DNA of 64,000 nucleotides from Aphrocallistes beatrix (Eukaryota; Porifera; Hexactinellida; Sceptrulophora; Aphrocallistidae). The notes under the pieces were generated by a model. The model did not search any database and was not told the DNA's origin. It saw only the letters and a program-made list of their open reading frames with translations. Made by a program: the position numbers and the translations under genes. The DNA lies in assembly GCA_963281255.1 (NCBI GenBank), contig OY725492.1:3835104-3899103 (forward strand), read 5' to 3'. Positions 6,567-63,115 of this stretch are shown one piece after another. Position 1 is the stretch's first letter; every line of letters starts with the position of its first letter.

Positions 6567-6610
6567 ACAGGCGCGTTTCGCTTGCTCACTTCGTATCTGC
6601 ATAAGTCGCC
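6567..6610 (+). repeat. Degenerate end of the GC-rich TIR repeat family
   Basis: The sequence ACAGGCGCGTTTCGCTTGC followed by CACTTCGTATCTGC and AAGTCGCC matches, with one internal deletion, the left terminus of the composite element at 16828 (CGCGCTTCGCTTGC, then CACTTCGTATCCGC and AGTCGCC). No satellite core follows, so this looks like an isolated terminus. Confidence 0.6.
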
Positions 6611-16581: not shown

Positions 16582-16929
16582 AATGGTTGCAACAGGAACG
16601 GCCATAAAATTATGGAATTAAAAGTGGTTACATAAGATGGTGTCAGATTAGCGATGAATAAGTAGGAATATTTCAAAAACATACATTGCTCCAACTTCGT
16701 TGTGCCGATTAGGAAATATGTATCATTCCTTTTTACGAAAATCTTGGCGCCGAAAATATCCAAAACTAATTGGAGAATTGAAGGCGCTAGAATATTAATC
16801 AGAAAATCCATCTAGTTTTAATATTTAACAAGCGCGCTTCGCTTGCTTGCGCTACGCGACTTGCGGACACTTCGTATCCGCAGAGTCGCCCTGCGGGCGC
16901 CTGGGATTACTCAATCCAGCCTATTTTGT

Positions 16930-17770
16930 TAATTTATATAAATATTTTAAACAAAGGTTAACAAATAATTTATCATATCGATCAGAAAATACAATATCCG
17001 AATTCTACACCACTAAACCCCATGTCAATCGTTGAAAGCAAGTTTCCAACATATTTTTGAGATTTGTTTACTTTATATATCTAATGTAAACAAAAGTAAA
17101 CAAATAATTTATCATATAGACCTGAAAATATGATATTCGAAATCTACACCCCTGAAAACCCCATGTCAATCGTTGAAAGCAAGTTTCCAACATATTTTTG
17201 AGATTTGTTTACTTTATGTATCTAATGTAAACAAAAGTAAACAAATAGTTTATCATATAGACCTGAAAATATGATATTCGAAATCTATACCCCTGAAAAC
17301 CCCATTTCAATCGTTGAAATCAAGTTTCTAACATATTTTTGAGATTTGTTTACTTTATGCACCTATTGTAAACAAAAGTAAACAAATTAATTATCAGATT
17401 TACTCGAAAATATGATATTCGAAATCTACGCCCCTGAAAACCCCATTTCAATCGTTGAAAGCAAGTTTCTAACATATTTTTGAGATTTGTTTACTTTATG
17501 CACCTATTGTAAACAAAAGTAAACAAATTAATCATCAGATTTACTCGAAAATATTATATTCGAAATCTACGCCCCTGAAAACCCCATGTCAATCGTTGAG
17601 AGTAAGTTTCTAGCATAATTTTGAGATTTGTTTACTTTATATATCTAATGTAAACAAAAGTAAACAAATAATTTATCATATAGACATGAAAATATGATAT
17701 TCGAAATCTACACCCCTGAAAACCCCATGTCACCCGTTGGAAGCTAGTCTCTAGCATATTTTTCAAAATT
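16930..17770. repeat. 141-bp tandem satellite, about six units
   Basis: The word AACCCCATGTCAATCG or a variant recurs at about 17016, 17158, 17300, 17441, 17582 and 17722, a spacing of 140-142 bp. Each unit also contains TTTGTTTAC...GTAAACAAAAGTAAACAAA, which is itself a small inverted repeat. Units differ from each other at a few percent of sites. Confidence 0.85.
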
Positions 17771-17775
17771 CATCA

Positions 17776-18252
17776 AATGTTGATATAATAATTATATAAT
17801 AATTGTATAATAATTGTATAATAATTATATAATAATTATATAATTATTATACAATTATTATATAATAATTATATAATAATTATATAATTATTATATAATA
17901 ATTATACAATTATTATATAATAATTATATAATAATTATATAATAATTATATAATAATTATATAATAATTATATAATAATTATATAATAATTATATAATAA
18001 TTATATAATAATTATATAATAATTATACAATAATTATATAATAATTATATAATAATTATATAATAATTATACAATAATTATATAATAATTATATAATAAT
18101 TATATAATAATTATATAATAATTATATAATTATTATATAATAATTATATAATTATTATATAATTATTATATAATTATTATATAATTATTATACAATAATT
18201 ATATAATTATTATATAATAATTATACAATAATTATATAATTATTATATAATA
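17776..18252. repeat. AT-only microsatellite array
   Basis: Nearly 480 bp composed of an 11-bp unit (ATAATAATTAT) that switches between orientations several times, so the array can fold on itself. Occasional ATACAATT variants are the only bases other than A/T. Confidence 0.9.
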
Positions 18253-18350
18253 CGCATTGTTTCTCTAATATCCTCAAGCGCCCACTGGGTAAATCTGCAG
18301 ACACGCAGTGTCTGTAAGCCGCGCAGCGCAAGCAAGCGAAGCGCGCTTGT

Positions 18351-27213: not shown

Positions 27214-30200
27214 ATGAGCCAGTCGCCAGATGAGTCCCCAGATCTTCCAAATCGCAACATTTCCCCTCCCCTCCCCCCGATCCTGAGTGATCATGAGTTC
27301 TCAGACATTCCAATGCTAACTGTTCCGAAGAAACCTATCAACTGGTCGCAGGCCCCTCACGAGCAGAATTCTACCGCGACGAATATCAGGCAGCAGCCTA
27401 CTCCAGACTCAGAGCCAGTCAACGAGAGTGAAGTCGTCATGTGAGTTCTTAAAATTTGTTTTATTGTTTTTGCAGAGGTATGAATATTTCGCTTAGGTAT
27501 TCGAACTCAATCGTAGATCCATCATTTGCCACCTACATTTCAAATTTTCATATCTCTACGATTCTTGATATTGGATATAGTGATATATTGGATATAGTGA
27601 TAAGTTGACCAATAATTCCGTGTCCCCGGCACTATCACTATATCCAATATCTACTGTATATACATGTTTTTAAAAAATTGGTTCATGTTGTTAATCCCTA
27701 ACTATACTAGGTCATCCTTGGTCCAAGTCCATTTGAGCGCGGCAGTGTCTTGTTAATTAAATGTCGGTTGTTATGATCATTCATATTATGTGCATTTCTT
27801 GTCTTAGATTAGATGATGCAAATAATAATGTCAATGATGAGGAATTGGATGCTGTAGCTCAGGTGTTGGAAGATTGGGATCCGATGGCAGACGAACATTT
27901 TAAAGAGAAGAGGTTACTTCTAATCAAGCTAGTGAAATGAATCCCATATTTCTTCAAAATGTCTCCGCAGACAAAAAATGAGGATATCGAAAAGTGATTG
28001 ACGCAGTCGCTCGTAAAATGAAAAATTGACATACGTGGTATCTAACTTAGTTAGTAACATCGCGTAGCTACGCATGCTAATACACAGTTTTGTTTTGACG
28101 ACCTTTACACTGCGGTGGTATTTATTTGAGGAAATACCGTATTTGTGTAATAAATTTTTATGTTATTTCTTTCAATAGAAAACTTCAGCAGATTACACCC
28201 GAGAAGAGCAATCTCCTCACTGTGCATTTCGAGAACATTCCTCTCTCTATCACGAAGGTAGAATTCATGCGATTAATGATTAATCACGCACATTGCTTCC
28301 AGACAATTGTACCCACCTTGTCATCCTTTGGGATCTTATTTATTTACTTATATGTTTAAACATTAAATTATATTATTTCTATTTCAATGAAATGGTACAA
28401 AACAAACGAAATTATTATAAATCAGTACATACAGATCTTATATATTCCAAGTATTGTAATAATGTTTCATTCTTGTGTCTAGGAATCATTCTGTAACATG
28501 CTCAAGCGAGCTGGAGACCCTAAGAACATCTTCATGGCGAAACACAAGAAAAAGGAGGCTAACTTTGCGTATGTTTCTTCGGGTATTATTGTTTTTTAAA
28601 ACTATAGATATTTCCCTCCATTTAATACAAAGACCTTGGAAAAGAAGATCTATCTTAAATACTTGTACATACGTACATGATACATAATGAATTGGCGATT
28701 AAAATGTTCTACTACCTAATGTGCATTAAAACAGCATTATCACAGAAATTCAATCCCTTCATACTTCTCGCTTCCCACTTTTACATCATTCATCAAAACA
28801 TCTCCTCTCAGGTTGAACACAGTGATGTAGGTCGCAATTTTGCCATCATCTTCTTCAGACTTCAGCGCTACAATTATCTGTTCATTCGTTTCAGGTAGAA
28901 ACTTGAAAGAAGAGAACCCCCTTGTTGGAATTATTGTCCCTATCCTCTTAATTTCGTAAGATCTCAGATCTTCAGAGCACAGCACCATCATGTTAGAACC
29001 ACGCTTCTCGTCCTCTATATCGTTATAAATCAGGTGTGAAACGCGCCGTGGGAGGAACACCCACCTCTCCAAAAGCCTGGACCACATCACCGCTTCATGG
29101 ATGACGTACCCAGGTGTGGATATGTTCAAGTGCTCGCGAAATTTCAAGTAATTCTCTTTCCAGGGTACGTGGTCTATACTGCCGTCAGGTGCGACTATCT
29201 TGATGAACATTGGATCGTCGTTGATGTATTCTCCTCGTATAGATGTCCACTCCTTCCCTAGCCCTCCCACGTACAGTTTGTTATCTTTGACTGTCATCCA
29301 CTCGGCTTTGAGCCCTTTCCTTTCATCCCCACCGCCGTCAGTTAGCACAATCCATGGTATGACATCCCATTTTAGGTTATTCTTTCTCCTCAGTTTGAAA
29401 ATGATTCCTGTCCTATCATCGACTGAGAGCAGATCTCCATTGAACATGACAAGTTCGGACAACTCCATTCCTCGGCCTCCTCGAGAATAGTCACTCTGGA
29501 TACTGATAGGATCTTCTAATCTGACTTGGAACGACTCTGCACCATCCCATACCAGCTCCCCTTCCATTAGGAAACTCTGCCAAACTTCTTTTCCCTCCTC
29601 CAGTCTGGACCTATCATCTAGATCTGCTACCAGCACGATGGGATAGGTTTTCGTATTACTGTGAGCTTGGGTGAAGATTTGAGGTCTGCGTGTTTTCATT
29701 TGTTGCGTTTTTGAGTTGGTGTCAGTCGCTGGACACTCTTCATTTTTGCATACATTATTTCCTAATGCAAAAACACCAGTCGAGATTATTAGTAGCGAGC
29801 ATACCACGACACCAACAACTTTAAATCTCCGCATTCGTCTCCTCGGGAGGGTACCGCCTATTTTTGTAAGGTAAAACGGAAGATTAGAGGTTTTGATATT
29901 CTCATCGATTGAGCATGAATCCATCTAATTATTCTGAATCAAAATACTATGGTCACTTACAAACTGTAGATACAATATTTCTACTGTGTTTTAATTTATA
30001 GTAAATTGGATTAAGGAAATGACTGTCTCTGAATGAAATAACATTAATTTCGATGCAGCATAGCTATTTGAGATAAGTAATGGTAAATATCTGGACAATG
30101 TCAATATCGCTGTACTAATGAACTAACCACATTCTTGTAACGCAAACTGTGTTCCATATGTATTTTAGTCACTGTGCCATCTTATCAATATAAACATTAT

Positions 30201-38029: not shown

Positions 38030-41000
38030 ATGATTAAAAACACCCCAGGCTCCTCTTCACGCATCGTGCTTGCTGTCCTCTGCTCCCTGATCGTGATCCT
38101 GCTGGTCCTCTACATACGACAGACGAACCAGTACAGCACCTTACTGCGTCTGCACCACAGAGCTCAGACCACCCTGCAAGAGAAGAGTGCCGAGACGATT
38201 CGGATGTCGAATGAGCTCAAATTGAAGGACTCGCAATGCACTACAGAAGTGGAGGCTCTGGACAAAGAGGTCTTGGATTGTGAAACGAATTCAAAAACGA
38301 TTTCAAAAGAGCTTCTTGACTTGAAAAAAACGAAGGTATTTATGCTAAAGATTTTGACAATTTATAGATTGTTTTATTATCCTATGTTTCCTACAGGATG
38401 AATTGGAATCAAAAACCAATGAACATGAAGGTACTAGAGAGTGTCTGCTTTTTTTAATGCGATTATTTACAGCTTCAAAAAATTTTTATTTTTTAGCAAG
38501 TTTAACTGGTGAGAAAGAGAAATATTCTGAAATGGAGAGTAGGTTGAAGTTCGAGGCAGAACAGTGTGCTGCGGAGGAGTGAGTTATTCACCTAACTTTA
38601 CAATCTTTAATATTAGAGCATCTCGTGATTAATTTGATCATGTGTGACACGTAGGGTCAATCTAAGAAAAGAACTCAAAGAATGTGAAATGTCAAAAAAG
38701 GAAGTAGGAAAAGGAAAAGAAAAGGCGAAAGAAAAGGCGAAAGGAGAGGATAAGGGATTTGGAATAGAGAAATTGGTGAGTCTTTTATTTCATTAGAGCA
38801 TATTTTATACAATCACTGATAGACTGAAAAGAATGCAAGTACGTATACGTTTATATTATACCAAACTCGTTTGGCTCGCTTACGAACACTTTCGGCATAC
38901 GTACGAGGGGTGCCCGATAAGTTTTTAGCCTTGATTCGAAAACAGCATTATAATAGAATGCATTATTATAATTGTTCAAAATACTCTCCTCCAGCTTTAA
39001 TACACTTGTCCATTCTGCAAAACCAACTATCAAAAGCTTCGGCGAACTCATTTTCTCGGATGTCCTCCAAAGCCTCTGATAATGCTGACCGCACTTCATC
39101 ATTGCTGCTAAAACCCTTCCCTTCAACTTCTTCTTAATACGAGGAAAGAGCCAGAAGTCACATGGAGCTAAATCTGGGCTGTAGGGTGGGTGAGATAACT
39201 CCTCGAAGCCAGTTTCTTCAATAAATTTCCTTGTTTTCAGGGCCTTATGTGAACTTGCATTATCATGATGCAGCAGTAAACCCCTTGTCCCATCTTCTGG
39301 TCGCATTTTATGAACATTTTGAATGAGTTCTGGGAGGCAACTAGTGGTGTACCATTCTGAAGAGACTGTTTTTCCACTCTCTAGTGCAACTACTGCACGA
39401 ATACCTTTAGGATCAAAGAATATTGCATACATTTGCTTCTTAGAATACTGACTTTTCCTAACTTTTTGAGGGGGAGGTTCACCTATTGGAGTCCACTGAC
39501 GGCTCTGCTCTTTGGATTCTGGGTCATAATGATAAATCCATGTTTCATCACCCGTAATCACTTTGGAAACCAGAGGAGAAGTGCCTTTTTTGAATTTTGA
39601 CTTCATTTTCTTGCACCAATCAATTCGGGCTACTTTCTGCTCAGGTTTGAGCAAATGGAATCCACCTTGGAATCCACCTTGCACAGACTTTTGTTAAGTG
39701 TAGAATTTCGTGTAGGATGAATTGGATCACATCATTACTGATACCCAACTCGTACTGAATCTGTCTATAGGTTATGTGCTTATCATTAAGTACCAACTTC
39801 TCAATTGCGCTGATGTTCTCTGGGGTCGAAGTAGTCAACGGCGACCCTGGTCTAGGTTTGTCAGTAAGGTCAAAATTTCCTCTTCTAAACTCTCTGTACC
39901 AGTTTTTTACAGTAGCAAGAGATGTAACATCGTTACCGAAAGCTTGTATTAACTGTTGGCAACAATCATCAATTGTTTTATCCATTTTAAATTGAAAAAG
40001 AATAATTGCCCGAATTTGCTCTTTTGTGAGGATAATATTTTCAGTAATATTTGCCTGAGCCATCATACAAAATGTAGCAAACTTCAGAAAAATATATAGT
40101 AGAGAGCTAGGGATTTACAGAGCCAGTTAGTAAAGTATCGAGTTATAAGAAAAATGTATGGTTCGTTAATAATGACTTAATATATGTTCAAGGCTAAAAA
40201 CTTATCGGGCACCCCTCGTATTAGACACTTTATTGATTAATGATACGTCGTGATGACGTAATAATTAATGATAACTCATCATTATTGGTTTAGGTTGGAT
40301 CATTAGGTGAGAAATGTTATTGTACTACATATGCGATTCAAATTTAACCTTCTATTAGCTATTACCCCATATTGGCCAAGTTACAACCGAAAAGATTGAT
40401 ATCTAATTATAAAAGGGTGATATGATGAGAAACGCGTCAATTCGACAACTTTTACAGTTGATCAACCTTTTGGATATTTAGATGCGAGTTTGAGGCGTCC
40501 GCTGAGGCATTCTCATCTCATGTCTCCTGTGACTCTAACATTTAGGCAGAAATATCGAATACAAACTCCAGACTTCTGTTGTGTGGTCGGAATTGAAGGA
40601 AATAAATACTACGAATTCAAGGGTTTAAAACTGGATTTATAAGGAATTCTGGGTGTGAAGAATGCATTTAATGCCGAGATACGGATCGGGTGCCCACTGG
40701 GGCATCTCAAATAAATAATTTATCATATACCTTCGAAAATATGATATTCGAAATCTACACCCCTCAAAACCACATGTTAACCGCTGGAAGCTAGACTCTA
40801 GCCTATTTTTGATTTGTTTACCTTATGTATCTATTGTAAACAAAAGTGAACAAACGAGATGTCGCGTTTACGACATGTCGAGATAGTAAAATTGGATGAC
40901 AGTACGTATAGGCACTAACACATGACAAATGTATATTATGTGGAGGCGTAGCTGGCGTGTGTAGATTAGGGATGGTACAGATGCGAGATCTCCACAAATA

Positions 41001-43691: not shown

Positions 43692-44160
43692 ACAAGTACG
43701 CTTCGCTTCGTGCACTTGCGTAGCGCGACTAGCGAACACATTGCGTCCGCAGAGTCGCCCTACGGGCGCCTGGGGATGTTAAAAAATGCCTAAAATTGAC
43801 TAATTTCGCCAATCCATTTCGCAATTTTGTTTAAGATAACTATCTATTGTAAACAAAACTAAAAGTGGCCACAAAGTTGGGAAATATGCAATTGGAAATC
43901 TACACCCCTAATTAACCCAGGTCAACTGCTGAAAGCAAGTCTCTAGCAACTTTTAGAGTTTTAACTATTGTAAACGAGAACTAATAAAATATTTATCATA
44001 TTAGTTGGAAAATACGATATTCGAAATCTACACCTCTAAAAAACCCATGTTAACCGTTGGAAGCTAGTCTCTAGCCCATTACAATCTAAAACTAATCTCC
44101 AAATCGTAACTTATAAGCAAACAAGCAAGCTTGGCTTGCTTGCGCGACTTATGGACACTA
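43692..44160 (+). repeat. Second copy of the GC-rich terminus/satellite family
   Basis: The left terminus ACAAGTACGCTTCGCTTCGT (43692) with CGCGACTAGCGAACACATT and GTCCGCAGAGTCGCCC parallels the element at 16828. Two diverged satellite units follow (AAATCTACACCCC near 43898 and AAATCTACACCTC near 44026, about 128 bp apart). At 44121 a second terminus (ACAAGCAAGCTTGGCTTGCT, CGCGACTTATGGACAC) appears in the same orientation, not inverted, so it is probably the truncated start of another copy. Confidence 0.75.
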
Positions 44161-45725
44161 CATCGCTTTCACGTTCTCTACTGATTGCTGAATTGTCATT
44201 TGTCTACGGTTACATTCATGAAATCAGAACTGTAGCTGAAAATTTTGGTTAATGATACGTAACTAGAATTTACTTCATATTAAGCCAACTATTCCTGAAT
44301 GTAAGGCCAATTTGAATCCACAAAGTTCACATTGCCAGAGATTGTTAAGTTACAACACAACCAATTTAAGTCCAGAACTTCCAACAATTATAGTGTATTA
44401 TTTGTTATGGTCAATCAATTTGATCATAAAATAACTTTTAATAATCAAATAATAGACTCAAAATAGCTGTATTCAACCATTTCTAGAATCGTGTGAATCG
44501 CATTCTAAAAGCCTGATAGTTGATTGGTTCTCACATGAACCAATTAATTTCGATCACAAATTGTCCCTTTGATTGTATGCATTGTAAGTCACTACTGTGT
44601 TTAGAATTTGCATTATAAAATAATCGAATTTGATTAGTCAGCATAATTTGTCACCTATCTCGGCGACGCGTGAAGATTTCACTTTGATCTTTGGACTCCC
44701 TTGTAGACTGATTATTATTTACCTGTGTGCCAAATTTCACATTTCTAGCACCTCCCAGTTCTTCAATCAACTTGCACAAACAAAAAAGCAATTGAGTTTT
44801 AATATATAAGATTTCCATTAGATAATTAACTTCAAAATTACATATCAGCAAGCTAAAGTACAGAAGTACAGATAATTTGGAAATTGTATACATGACTTAT
44901 ATCCCAGCATGCATACGTACGGGATACCTAGGGGGGGCGGGGCATTTGACCCGAATTCCTGTGACCGCCCCTGGATATACCCAATCATATTGTAAGTATT
45001 GGATGAATAAATTTCCTTGTACACAAGTCAATAATCATGCTGAGCTAATTGAATAGTATTGTTATTATGCGACATGAGGTATGAAATTGCAGTATTGGGA
45101 TAGTATTTATTAACCAAGTTATGTGCATTTATAATAAATTGGGTAAGTTTCTCTAATTACTTGATTAATTAGAATATTGCATGATAATAGTTGTGTAATC
45201 GTAATTGCAAATGAAATTGCGTCGATAGATTTCCTTGTTTGAATTAATTTACTGAGAAAGATTTGTAGCATTCTCAGCGGAATAATGAACTCTTCTGTTC
45301 TCTAAGTCGTTGGCATTACTACAGACACCAGCTAGACTCTCTCAATAATTTAAATTTTTAAATCGTTATTATACAAACACAGTTCATTCTCGTATGTATA
45401 ATCACTAATAGATAGCAAATAGGCAGTATTGAATCAGCTTCTAATTTCAATGTTAACAAAATAAGAAAGCTGCTGAGGTGTATTTTGGTGTTTAGGACAT
45501 ATATATAATTCTATTTGTGCTGTATCGCACCAATTTGAAAACGCTAGTGCTTTATTACCTTCGTGAATACTACAATTTCTTCTATTGTGCAGTTTCTATG
45601 CACTTAATAAGCATTTAATAGCTGTTTTAATAATCCTTATCCCTTTATTGTATGCTCGAACTCTGTCTACGCGTATATATATTGATATCATCTCGATTTA
45701 TAGAGACTCACTTATTAGAAAAAAA
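44161..45725. other. Intergenic, upstream of the receptor phosphatase
   Basis: A long AT-rich spacer. A short hAT-like fragment may lie at 44928-44973 (AGGGGGGGCGGGGCATTTGAC and TGACCGCCCCTGG). An 80-codon open frame on the minus strand (44893-44651) has no recognisable features. Nothing else is supported. Confidence 0.4.
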
Positions 45726-49534: not shown

Positions 49535-52500
49535 ATGGTTGACTTCTCTCTTCAAATCTTCATTTTACTCTCCTTCATTTCCCTATGCACATCTCAGTGT
49601 ATTGAGAATGTCACGTCGAGTTTGATAGAAAATCGCATCAAAGCTATTGTTGGGATTAATCTCGAGTCTCCTACACCCCCTACCATCTCTATCCTTGAAG
49701 TGTACTACAACTGTCGAGCACACTCCCCCACTCCCAACATCTTCTCTTCTCTCTCCATCACTGTTGACTTTCAAGTTTCAGATCCCAACCCTTCCGCCAT
49801 ACAATACACACAGATAGATTTCGAGTGTATAAGCGACTCTTGGATGGCAATTGATCAACAATTTCCTTCGCTTTTTAACACCTCCCAACTTTCAGTTTTT
49901 CGATCACATTCCTACTACTTAGACAACTGTACAAGCTGTCATTTCTCAGCTAGCAACCCGTATCACTGTGTGGAATGTGACCAAGTGTGTGACATGAGTT
50001 ATTTTGGATATTGCACTTCTGCAGGCGCTTCTGAATGCTGCAACTTCCTATGGCAAGACACCTGCCAGACGGTCTGTCCTAGCGGGACTAGGCCGCATTC
50101 GAACCACTCTTGTGTCTGCTCTGAGTTTATCTCCGGAAGTAATTGCGATATTTGTAGCTATCCTTGTGATAACAACGGCACTGCAAACGCGGAATGTAAC
50201 GCCTGTATCTGCCCACATGGCTATTCTGACAGAAACTGCAGCACAGAGATAAATTTCTGTGACAGTAGTCCCTGTCCACAAAACGCGAATTGTAACAGCT
50301 CTCCAGCTGGTCCTACATGCACATGCATTCAGGGGTATACTGGTGGGAACTGCGAGAACAAGATCGACTTCTGTCTGAGTCAGCCTTGTAAGAATGAGTC
50401 TGTGTGTAGATCTGAGACCACTGGCTTCTCCTGTATATGCCATGCGGGCACTACTGGGCCTGATTGTGGTGTCACTGTTGACTCGTGCAAAACGCTAAAC
50501 CCTTGTAGGAACAATGGGACCTGTTTGAATGGGATAAGAGGGGCGGAGTGCCAATGTTCCTATGAATACATTGGTCAATTCTGCAACTCTGAGGTTGACT
50601 TTTGTCTCACAGATCCTTGTTTGAATAACGGCACCTGTACGCCAACTCTAGGCAACTACACTTGTGCCTGCGACTTCCCTTATTCCGGACACGATTGTGA
50701 GAATGCCATAGACTACTGTGAGCCTAACCTCTGCTCTAATAATTCAGTGGAATGTCTGAACACAGTTCAAGGATCTGTGTGCGTTTGTGAGGCAGGTTTC
50801 AATGGGGCATTTTGTGAGGATAACATCGATGATTGTTTGTCGGTTGACTGTAACGAAGGTAGGTGTGTGGATGAGGTGTTGAATTATACTTGTGGGTGTG
50901 ATGTCGGATTTACTGGACGGCACTGTGAACTGAATGATGTAGGTTTGTTGTGCAGCAAAGTGAGGTGTGAAAATAATGGCAGCTGTAGTGTCGAATATTT
51001 TGTGAATGCGAGTAGAGATGAAGTGGTATTAGTCGCGAATAGCGACGACATAATGTATAAGTCTGGCTATTGCAATTGTACGAATGAATGGGGTGGAGTG
51101 ATGTGTGAAAATTGCCTGTTATCCTGTAGAGAAAACGAAGTGGCAAATTCCGTATGTGGCCGATGTATATGTGAAGGTCTCTGGAGTGGGGTGGACTGTA
51201 TGGAATGTGAGTATCTTCGCGAGGCGAGTGCCTGTGTTGAGAACTGCACAATAGAGAGCTATCAGGTTTCATCTAATGGTACATGTTTTGCTTGTGGGTT
51301 AGTGCATTGTGTCCAATGCAACCAATCCCGTCCACAGGAATGTGAGAAATGTGAATCAAACTACACACTCAACACAGAGACTGGTGCCTGTGATGAAATT
51401 CCGATACATTCCACAACTCCCTTCATAACAACCACACCCCCACCACCCCCACCTCCCCCAGAAATACCCCCATTGGACATCCCAGGCCTCTCGATTGGAC
51501 TGCCACTCGGTCTGCTGCTTCTGCTCTTGCTAATAATCGCGATAGTAGTGATAGTAATCATTTTGTGGAAGTGCAAAGGCTGCGGCTTCTGTAGCTGTTG
51601 CTGTAAGTGTGGTGGGTGCATGGGAGGAGGCGGTGGAAGCGGGAGAAGTTGGTGGGGAGGGAGACCGAAGAAGCAGACTCTGAATATTCAGATAGTTTCC
51701 GGAGGGTTGGATGATGATGAGGAAGATATCGTTTTGCGTAGAGGAAAGAAGAAAAAAAAGAAAATTTCTAAAGACAAAGTCTTGGATAAATACAAACACC
51801 TTGAGGATAGCAGATCGAGTCTGTTCTCTGCCACTGCCAGCCAGATGCCCACTCAATCCCATGCAATAGAACTGAACGAGAATCCACAGTACAGCCCTGA
51901 GAGGCAGGTGTGTCCTTCTGGTGAGAGTGCAAACTACGAGTTTATCTATGAGCGCCAACTAGACTCTATGCATACCTTTCCTACCTCCACGCCTCTACAA
52001 CCTCCTCCTCCTCCTCAAACAATGCAACCGATAAATCATGATTATAAACTCCAACAAATTGCCCCAGTCACTTCTGTCCGCCCCCTCCTGCCTCCTCAAA
52101 ATATCGAACCGATACACGATTATAATCCCCAATCAGTTGTTCCAGGTCCTTTTGTCTCTCCACTCCAACAGCCTCAAACTATCGAACCAGTAAACTACAA
52201 TTATAAACTCCAACCAGTTGTCCCACTCCCTTTTGTCCGTCCCCTCTTGCCTCCTCAAAATATCGAACCGATACACGATTATAATCCCCAATCAGTTGTT
52301 CCAGGTCCTTTTGTCTCTCCACTCCAACAGCCTCAAACTATCGAACCAGTAAATCACAATTATAAACTCCAACCAGTTGTCCCACTCCCTTTTGTCCGTC
52401 CCCTCTTGCCTCCTCAAAATATCGAACCGATACACGATTATAATCCCCAATCAGCTGTTCAGCTTCCGTCTGCTGGCGTTGAAACGGCAGAAAACATATA

Positions 52501-62038: not shown

Positions 62039-63115
62039 CTAGCATTGCGTGTGTAGGGCCGCCCATCCATCCGTCCTCTCTTTCTCTCTAGTTAGTCTCA
62101 ACCTCGGCTCTGAATCCCATAAGATGTGTATTATTGTACTATCTAGCTTAGTTTTGTATGTCACTGTAATTTTAACAGAGTTATCTGATTGCTAAATATG
62201 TAGTGGTACATATCAGGATCCTGTGTTTTGAACTGTTTACTGTTACTATTTAAACCTATCTGTATACACACTTTATTCACCAGAGTTAATGATACTCACA
62301 AACATATTTAGACATTAGATGTAGAGCGAAGTACGAGTACGGTACATGCTACATTATTCAAATGGGTTCACGACCAAACATGATACACGATTAATCACCT
62401 AGATCGATACAATAGCAATAATAGAAGGGTCGTCTGGGAACCTGATGCCGTCTAGTCTCTACTTCTTTGCATTCGTGCTTACGTAACTGTACGAGCAGAC
62501 CTCAGTTGCGCATTGTTATGAAGGCGGATTTAATTTGGTAAATTTGATACTTGGTTTTGAAGGATCTTTGTTAGTTAACTTTGATATCTTTTATGGTGAC
62601 ATTTTTGATGAATTATATTCCATCGTTTTTCTACATTTTTTACATTCATCCAAAGCTTTGGAATCCTGTAACCAGCTGTAAGAATGCAATCCATTGTGTG
62701 AAGATTGCAGGAGCACAAAGCTAGATGTAACAGAGATGTCCAGATGCTCTGTAATGCTAGCTGTTTTGTTTGTACAAACAAGCCACACTTCACAATGAAA
62801 TTAGTCCGTCAAATATTCAAACATTGTCTTCTGACTATTGATAGCTCTCTTAATAAGCCTTAGCTCTTCACTCTAATCTAATTGTCGATAATAGAGAACA
62901 TGCTATATACTAACTTTAACGGCTACTAGACTGGGATTTATAGACGTATATTCTGAATATCGTATTTTTAAGCTATGATGAATTATTTGTTTGCTTACAG
63001 TAGGTACATAAAGTAAAAAATCTCAAAAATATCCCGTCGTAAAGGGCCCGGCCCGTCCCTTTTTCTATCAACTTATTTGATTAATAACATTGCATAACAC
63101 GTGGAATAGCATATC
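62039..63115. other. Intergenic downstream of MOB1
   Basis: A CT-rich run (62083-62093) follows the MOB1 stop. The rest is AT-rich. Open frames on the minus strand near 62575-62793 overlap each other in two frames and show no protein features. Just before the next ORF is a GC-rich inverted stretch (GGGCCCGGCCC, about 63043-63053). Confidence 0.4.

Follow-up and report, generated by a model that had tools for sequence, protein, structure and literature searches.

A satellite-bearing locus of Aphrocallistes beatrix as the probable remains of two opposed Helitron-like insertions

Is the segment from 16828 to 18350 of the window (the whole 64,000-nucleotide stretch of A. beatrix DNA analyzed here) a single transposon with terminal inverted repeats (TIRs), whose ends move together with the satellite and the microsatellite enclosed by them, as the original prediction held? 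The parts that led to this view are all present. Perfect inverted ends of 26 bp lie at 16828-16853 and 18325-18350, and their 22-bp core has three matches in the window (≤3 mismatches) versus 0 in 100 shuffles. They enclose a satellite (16925-17763) of 6.0 units of 141 bp with 90% matches, and an AT array of 470 bp (17783-18252) composed of 11-bp units that switch orientation; the best single-strand fold of this array reached -141 kcal/mol against a shuffle mean of -72 (z -24, 0/100 shuffles). The hairpin-forming capacity attributed to the ends was clear on the left, where the fold beat 200 of 200 shuffles (z -3.5), and weaker on the right, where, with the last two bases omitted, 9 of 200 shuffles were as good (z -1.9). 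At gathering scores, Rfam detected nothing in the window but a U1 RNA. The comparisons described below indicate that the locus most likely consists of two broken Helitrons lying head to head, one of family B on the left and one of family C on the right, and not of one transposon. The features concerned are the following:

16829..17779, minus strand: B-family Helitron copy, 5'-truncated, delimited by alignment with 20 other B copies
16829..16853, minus strand: 3' terminus of this B copy, which is the left half of the supposed TIR
16862..16882, minus strand: main 3' subterminal hairpin; across 57 copies, 93% of its cells are paired
16925..17763, minus strand: satellite, six 141-bp units
17783..18252, no strand assigned: AT array of 11-bp units of switching orientation, located where the two elements join
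18252..18349, plus strand: final 98 bp of a Helitron copy of family C; over 99 bp it shares 96% identity with C copy L028
40710..40854, minus strand: stray satellite piece of about one unit, without a GC-rich end
43693..44075, minus strand: B-family copy, degraded, containing roughly two satellite units and adjoining the C copy below
44122..44811, minus strand: complete C-family copy of 690 bp, running from TC to CTTG between a flanking A and a flanking T

Four other pieces of the window had been assigned to the same family. That at 40690 turned out to be satellite only, that at 43692 a degraded B copy and that at 44121 a complete C copy; at 6567 a degraded end could be recognized by eye only. 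Additional fragments of B/C tail and satellite were observed at 27451-27561 and 62946-63032.

A search of the genome (100.5 Mb in 28 contigs) for the 22-bp end core gave 3,247 exact occurrences (1,644 + 1,603), and 3,957 + 3,855 when up to two mismatches were allowed, the reversed control giving 0. The first 100 listed exact cores, every one of which lies on contig C1, include 19 pairs of neighbors within 3 kb of each other; 4 of these pairs faced each other in a TIR-like manner (+-), 3 pointed apart (-+) and 12 had the same direction (7 ++ and 5 --), and this lack of an excess of facing pairs argues against a TIR element. By class, the first 30 loci with an exact end core, again all on C1 and chosen irrespective of the satellite, comprised 23 ends of family A, 2 of B, 2 of C and 3 of none. 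Satellite lay beside the end at just the two B ends (at L020 and L037 a satellite piece was found more than 1.1 kb from the end), so that 28 of 30 GC-rich ends had no satellite beside them and the proposed coupling of ends and core did not hold, which is the outcome that the original prediction had named as refuting it. In the aligned copies, the core is one end of asymmetric elements of 0.5-1 kb, the opposite end of which is different.

Family A elements measure about 500-550 bp and have a GC-rich hairpin end opposite an AT-rich one. The AT-rich end of family A reads ...TTAATAGTAAGGA followed by T (also given as ...ATTAATCGAGTTTTAATAGTAAGGA followed by T), apart from small differences, in 9 of the 15 copies that were aligned, and the remaining six continue into other sequence; that of family B reads ...TTTTAATATATAAGA followed by T, likewise with small differences, in 9 of 11, the exceptions being L074, which is diverged, and L082, which is interrupted. 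For family B we used the best 20 of 39 other places listed, retrieved with a query composed of end and satellite; both are therefore present in these 20 loci by choice, and beyond the satellite the loci have a common tail. The base outside the GC end was A in 63 of 64 copies. Read on the opposite strand, families A and B both begin with TC after a flanking A and finish with CTTG before a flanking T. This was quantified in 30 two-ended copies from the examined loci, identified by end patterns that tolerated 3-4 substitutions and some of them carrying nested inserts: the 5' flanking base was A in 27, two of the three remaining flanks being direct tandem joints of CTTG to TC, and the 3' flanking base was T in 29. 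The 5' end itself was TC in 27 of the 30 (AC, CC and TA in the rest), and the 3' end was CTTG in 50 and CTAG in one of 57 copies, which had been selected by a core containing this terminus. Direct tandem CTTG-TC joints between elements were seen at L025/L026 (A to A) and at L077 (A to B); they resemble head-to-tail joints or an insertion at the A-T site of a 5' end.

The original prediction suggested looking for target duplications, and one empty site with an ungapped alignment bears on them. At L005, a 606-bp A copy interrupts a satellite unit of family B. When joined, the flanks of this copy are 97.5% identical over 120 bp, with no gap, to an intact unit of L075, which is a paralogous site. 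No target duplication was found at this L005/L075 site, and the element had inserted between A and T. It was the one clean empty site outside simple repeats; at L079, by our reading, a trinucleotide repeat continues in register across the insertion. Inverted ends in each copy together with a target duplication, the mark of a TIR element, were thus not found, as the aligned ends differ, nor were the TT or T-rich sites of Helentrons and HINEs, since the counted copies lie between A and T. We consider the three families to be relatives of Helitrons that are non-autonomous and have a variant 3' end. The prediction had named no superfamily; the assignment is now to Helitrons, with one caveat: the terminus reads CTTG instead of CTRR, for which reason we file these families as a variant and not as canonical Helitrons. 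A SINE-like or retroposed element, raised as a candidate by the asymmetry and TA-rich tail of family A, was dropped on account of the A-T empty site and the coding relatives. Copies of family A beside TA-rich tails were observed at L010, L027, L030 and other loci. Several A copies, these three among them, adjoin what we take to be Tc1/mariner-like ends, and a frame at 38851-39684 of the window presumably encodes a mariner-like transposase.

An autonomous partner with matching ends had also been called for, and candidate coding relatives were encountered. The Helitron Rep domain (PF14214) gave 106 genome matches, pieces included, 101 of them above the cut-off and the best at 5e-61, and 0 matches in 14 control genomes; the longest open frame containing it has 1,970 aa. 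The 30 Rep loci that we fetched form two groups with about 69% DNA identity where compared. Stretches of one group-1 and one group-2 protein gave a strong PF14214 signal, whereas PIF1 and other Rep signals in them were below the cut-offs. The link to the short elements lies in the 5' ends. The Rep-coding locus L050 starts, after a flanking A, with TCTTATATATTAAAATGCTAGGATT, which is the B end, followed by the B tail, one 141-bp unit and then the frame, and is 85% identical to a B copy over 563 bp; the Rep-coding locus L040 opens with the C end, and 287 bp of it match a C copy at 93% identity. In these two loci, the ones whose 5' ends were read, the 5' end is TC and the frame is broken. Satellite was also found upstream of the frame at L052. 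The 3' end of an autonomous element was not reached: no match to the 3' end with up to seven errors was present in the 3.1 kb that follow the Rep part at L044 (L089 and L092), of which about 2.8 kb lie past the stop codon, and for this reason we infer the common 3' end. Families B and C appear to have arisen by deletion from Helitrons that this genome itself encodes.

Other features of the Rep loci deserve mention. Beyond the group-1 Rep part, L089 and L092 contain additional coding-like sequence as well as a repeat of about 38 bp in tandem. The last part of the L044 frame looks by eye like an OTU protease, although Pfam returned no match for its last 96 aa. The group-2 Helitron protein of L043:1-3549 has N-terminal STPR repeats (PF21107, E 3.5e-15), of 23 residues per 69-bp unit; repeats spaced by 69 bp occur in both Rep groups, and their number appears to vary among copies. 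A literature search joining Helitron and STPR found no paper.

The hairpins of the GC-rich end were analyzed in 57 copies. In the main stem 93% of the cells are standard pairs, and 2 of its 9 pairs have changes on both sides; 27 of the 57 copies have TA and 21 have GC as the outermost pair, which was assembled manually across a gap in the alignment. The next stem inward is 70% paired, with changes on both sides at 5 of 6 pairs, and the last stem, a predicted one that reaches the final base in the window B copy, hardly varies among copies. Both the covariation score and the number of cells changed on both sides were above all 500 shuffles; the number of pairs changed on both sides was unremarkable, with 62 of 500 shuffles reaching the observed value. 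In the window B copy the main hairpin has 21 nt and lies 33 nt from the 3' end. For canonical Helitrons, the portion of the literature cited here describes a palindrome of 16-20 nt about 11 nt from the 3' end and a CTRR terminus (PMC4067079).

With these families defined, the window locus can be read from both sides. On the left, the B copy has its 3' end, ...GCGCTTG, at 16829, with A as the adjoining base at 16828, and departs from the B tail after CATCAAATG (17771-17779). On the right, the C piece has the 3' end ...GCGCGCTTG, with T adjoining at 18350. A B copy on the minus strand and a C piece on the plus strand, joined at unique junctions, imply that the supposed TIRs are two 3' ends with common last bases, contributed by opposite Helitron-like copies from two families. 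Each of the two inner junctions has one genome match with up to three mismatches, the window itself, and we therefore see no sign that the composite moved as a unit. The AT array behaves alike: its strict pattern (three consecutive 11-mers) matched, among 93 loci, in the window locus L001 only, and in a by-eye comparison of the places listed for array, B and C (100, 40 and 40) the three were co-located in the window only, so that the array was rejected as part of a mobile unit. These results did not bear out the joint mobility of ends and core. As the Helraiser transposon, in what we cite of its description (PMC4778049), requires its 5' end, the window composite is probably immobile. The left flank (16771-16828), read backwards, bears a weak resemblance to a Helitron-like 5' end, and the window B copy may therefore sit at the A-T site before an older element.

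The prediction was right in that a mobile family carries the satellite, which belongs to family B. The B-end pattern was found at 581 + 639 places (about 1,220) and the satellite unit pattern at 399 + 394, both with up to three mismatches. Unit number varies, as had been proposed for checking: by profile search, 21 B copies, interrupted ones included, hold from about 1.4 to 5.8 units with a median of 2.9, the window copy having the most. At C15:950835-952147, a candidate expanded array, ten unit cores follow each other at a spacing of 141 bp (once 145); this array has at least 10 units and a B end in the preceding 350 bp (L093). Mean unit identity was 0.857 within and 0.852 between elements, which led us to reject homogenization of units within elements. 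Units 2-3 and units 4-5 of the window are 96% alike, suggesting a local duplication. Another tandem repeat of the window, of 159 bp (52004-52458), lies inside a 1,106-aa frame that by eye is like an EGF-repeat membrane protein.

The account that we favor, and to which we assign a probability of roughly 0.85, is that the locus represents the remains of two opposite, non-autonomous Helitron-like insertions, and that the satellite rides in family B. A B element begins with its TC end, which is followed, from 5' to 3', by a tail some 400-500 bp long, a small number of 141-bp units, the hairpins and the CTTG end. Families B and C may be mobilized in trans by the Rep/helicase protein of the coding Helitrons, through rolling-circle steps that would comprise a nick at the 5' TC, unwinding, a stop at the 3' hairpins, which would serve as terminator, and insertion of the strand between A and T. 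The satellite would be a passenger just inside the 5' tail; with this location, each transposition of B could leave a few units as seeds wherever it inserts, and some of the seeds would grow. Both window copies have lost their 5' ends and meet in the AT palindromic array, possibly through neighboring insertions followed by deletion and array growth. One genome holds much of the chain, from a Rep locus with a satellite unit, through about 1,220 B-type ends, to arrays. The Rep locus, the B ends, copies with 1-6 units and an array of at least 10 make the gain of units testable in individuals or close species.

Joints of this kind are not confined to the window. Besides it, head-to-head joints with palindromic arrays were found at 4 of the 20 B loci, three of them independent, as L075 and L081 are one locus duplicated together with its flanks. 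At L075/L081, L078 and L080, a 5'-truncated B copy is followed by a palindromic minisatellite, with a period of mostly 20-23 bp, and by an inverted piece of B or A; the break in L081 follows CAAATG, the same as in the window. One of the joints between tail and minisatellite was found (≤3 mismatches) at three places and no more, and the left flanks of these places differ. This finding, and the presence at four independent loci of a palindromic array where a truncated element meets an inverted relative, would fit an alternative in which head-to-head composites with two 3' ends are a recurrent product of rolling-circle transposition, made for example by strand switching at palindromic arrays, and sometimes move as units. 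Against it, the right partners differ across the four loci (B, B, A and C), and the arms, 83-87% identical over their longest alignments, are different copies, which also led us to reject the inverted duplication of a single copy. Furthermore, the right element of L078 is a complete B copy including its own 5' end, six composites were queried by their joined flanks without any match that spans the joint among the examined loci, and the 5' end, essential in Helraiser according to the cited part of that study (PMC4778049), is missing from the composites at the joint. On this evidence we regard the alternative as unlikely. Facing copies can also occur otherwise: at L070 two complete B copies face each other as separate elements, and the facing B copy at L082 is partial and has no palindromic array of this kind.

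The occurrence of like joints at 4 of 20 B loci implies that "accident" may be too simple an origin for them. Within the account of two opposite insertions, we read these joints as putative products of repeated fusion at unstable palindromic arrays, and such composites may possibly move as units. We think it unlikely that head-to-head composites with two 3' ends and an expanding, self-complementary minisatellite joint, some of which may have moved, are a repeated product of Helitron transposition here; if it does, rolling-circle elements would be the source of both dispersed satellite seeds and palindromic minisatellites.

A true TIR, MITE or foldback DNA transposon in which ends, satellite and AT array transpose together would account for the perfect 26-bp inverted ends and for the recurrence of head-to-head pairs with palindromic arrays (L075/L081, L078 and L080), but we reject it as very improbable, since facing pairs are not in excess among the first 100 ends listed, the left and right ends come from different families, both inner junctions of the window and likewise the right junction of L075 are unique in the genome, and the one empty site shows no duplicated target. 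The locus illustrates that facing Helitron 3' ends can mimic a TIR element.

The spread of satellites via rolling-circle transposons is an accepted idea. A close precedent is Cg_HINE of Crassostrea gigas, non-autonomous Helentrons carrying satellite-like arrays; in the part of that work cited here (PMC7492417), these elements have T-rich, generally TT, insertion sites and subterminal inverted repeats of 11-12 bp, and the authors linked none of them to an autonomous element. As described there, they resemble the elements of A. beatrix in being non-autonomous rolling-circle transposons with a central satellite-like array and a 3' palindrome, in the lack of a target duplication, in their wide dispersal and in their mostly short arrays. 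They differ in the TT or T-rich sites, the site here being A-T, and in the lack of an autonomous link, whereas here one Rep-coding locus begins with the 5' end of family B and contains a unit of the satellite. Some DINE-1-like copies of Drosophila contain tandem repeats or microsatellites, in the cited section of PMC4067079; this DINE-1/HINE group is likewise high-copy, non-autonomous and rolling-circle, but of Helentron type with a T-rich preference. Helraiser and Helibat1, as far as the cited descriptions go, have in common with the present elements the 5' TC, the A-T insertion, the 3' hairpin, a related Rep and head-to-tail joints; they end in CTRR/CTAG, whereas the elements here end in CTTG, have the main hairpin further from the end and, in the group-2 protein, STPR repeats that set them apart. 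A 2025 review, in its relevant part (PMC12628747), covers the origin of satellites from arrays located within Helitrons, and also oyster loci at which Helitrons are shuffled. In view of Cg_HINE, DINE-1 and the review, the present case varies a known kind and is not a new kind; less ordinary are the satellite in a Rep-coding locus and the recurrence, at three more independent loci, of head-to-head joints that contain palindromic minisatellites.
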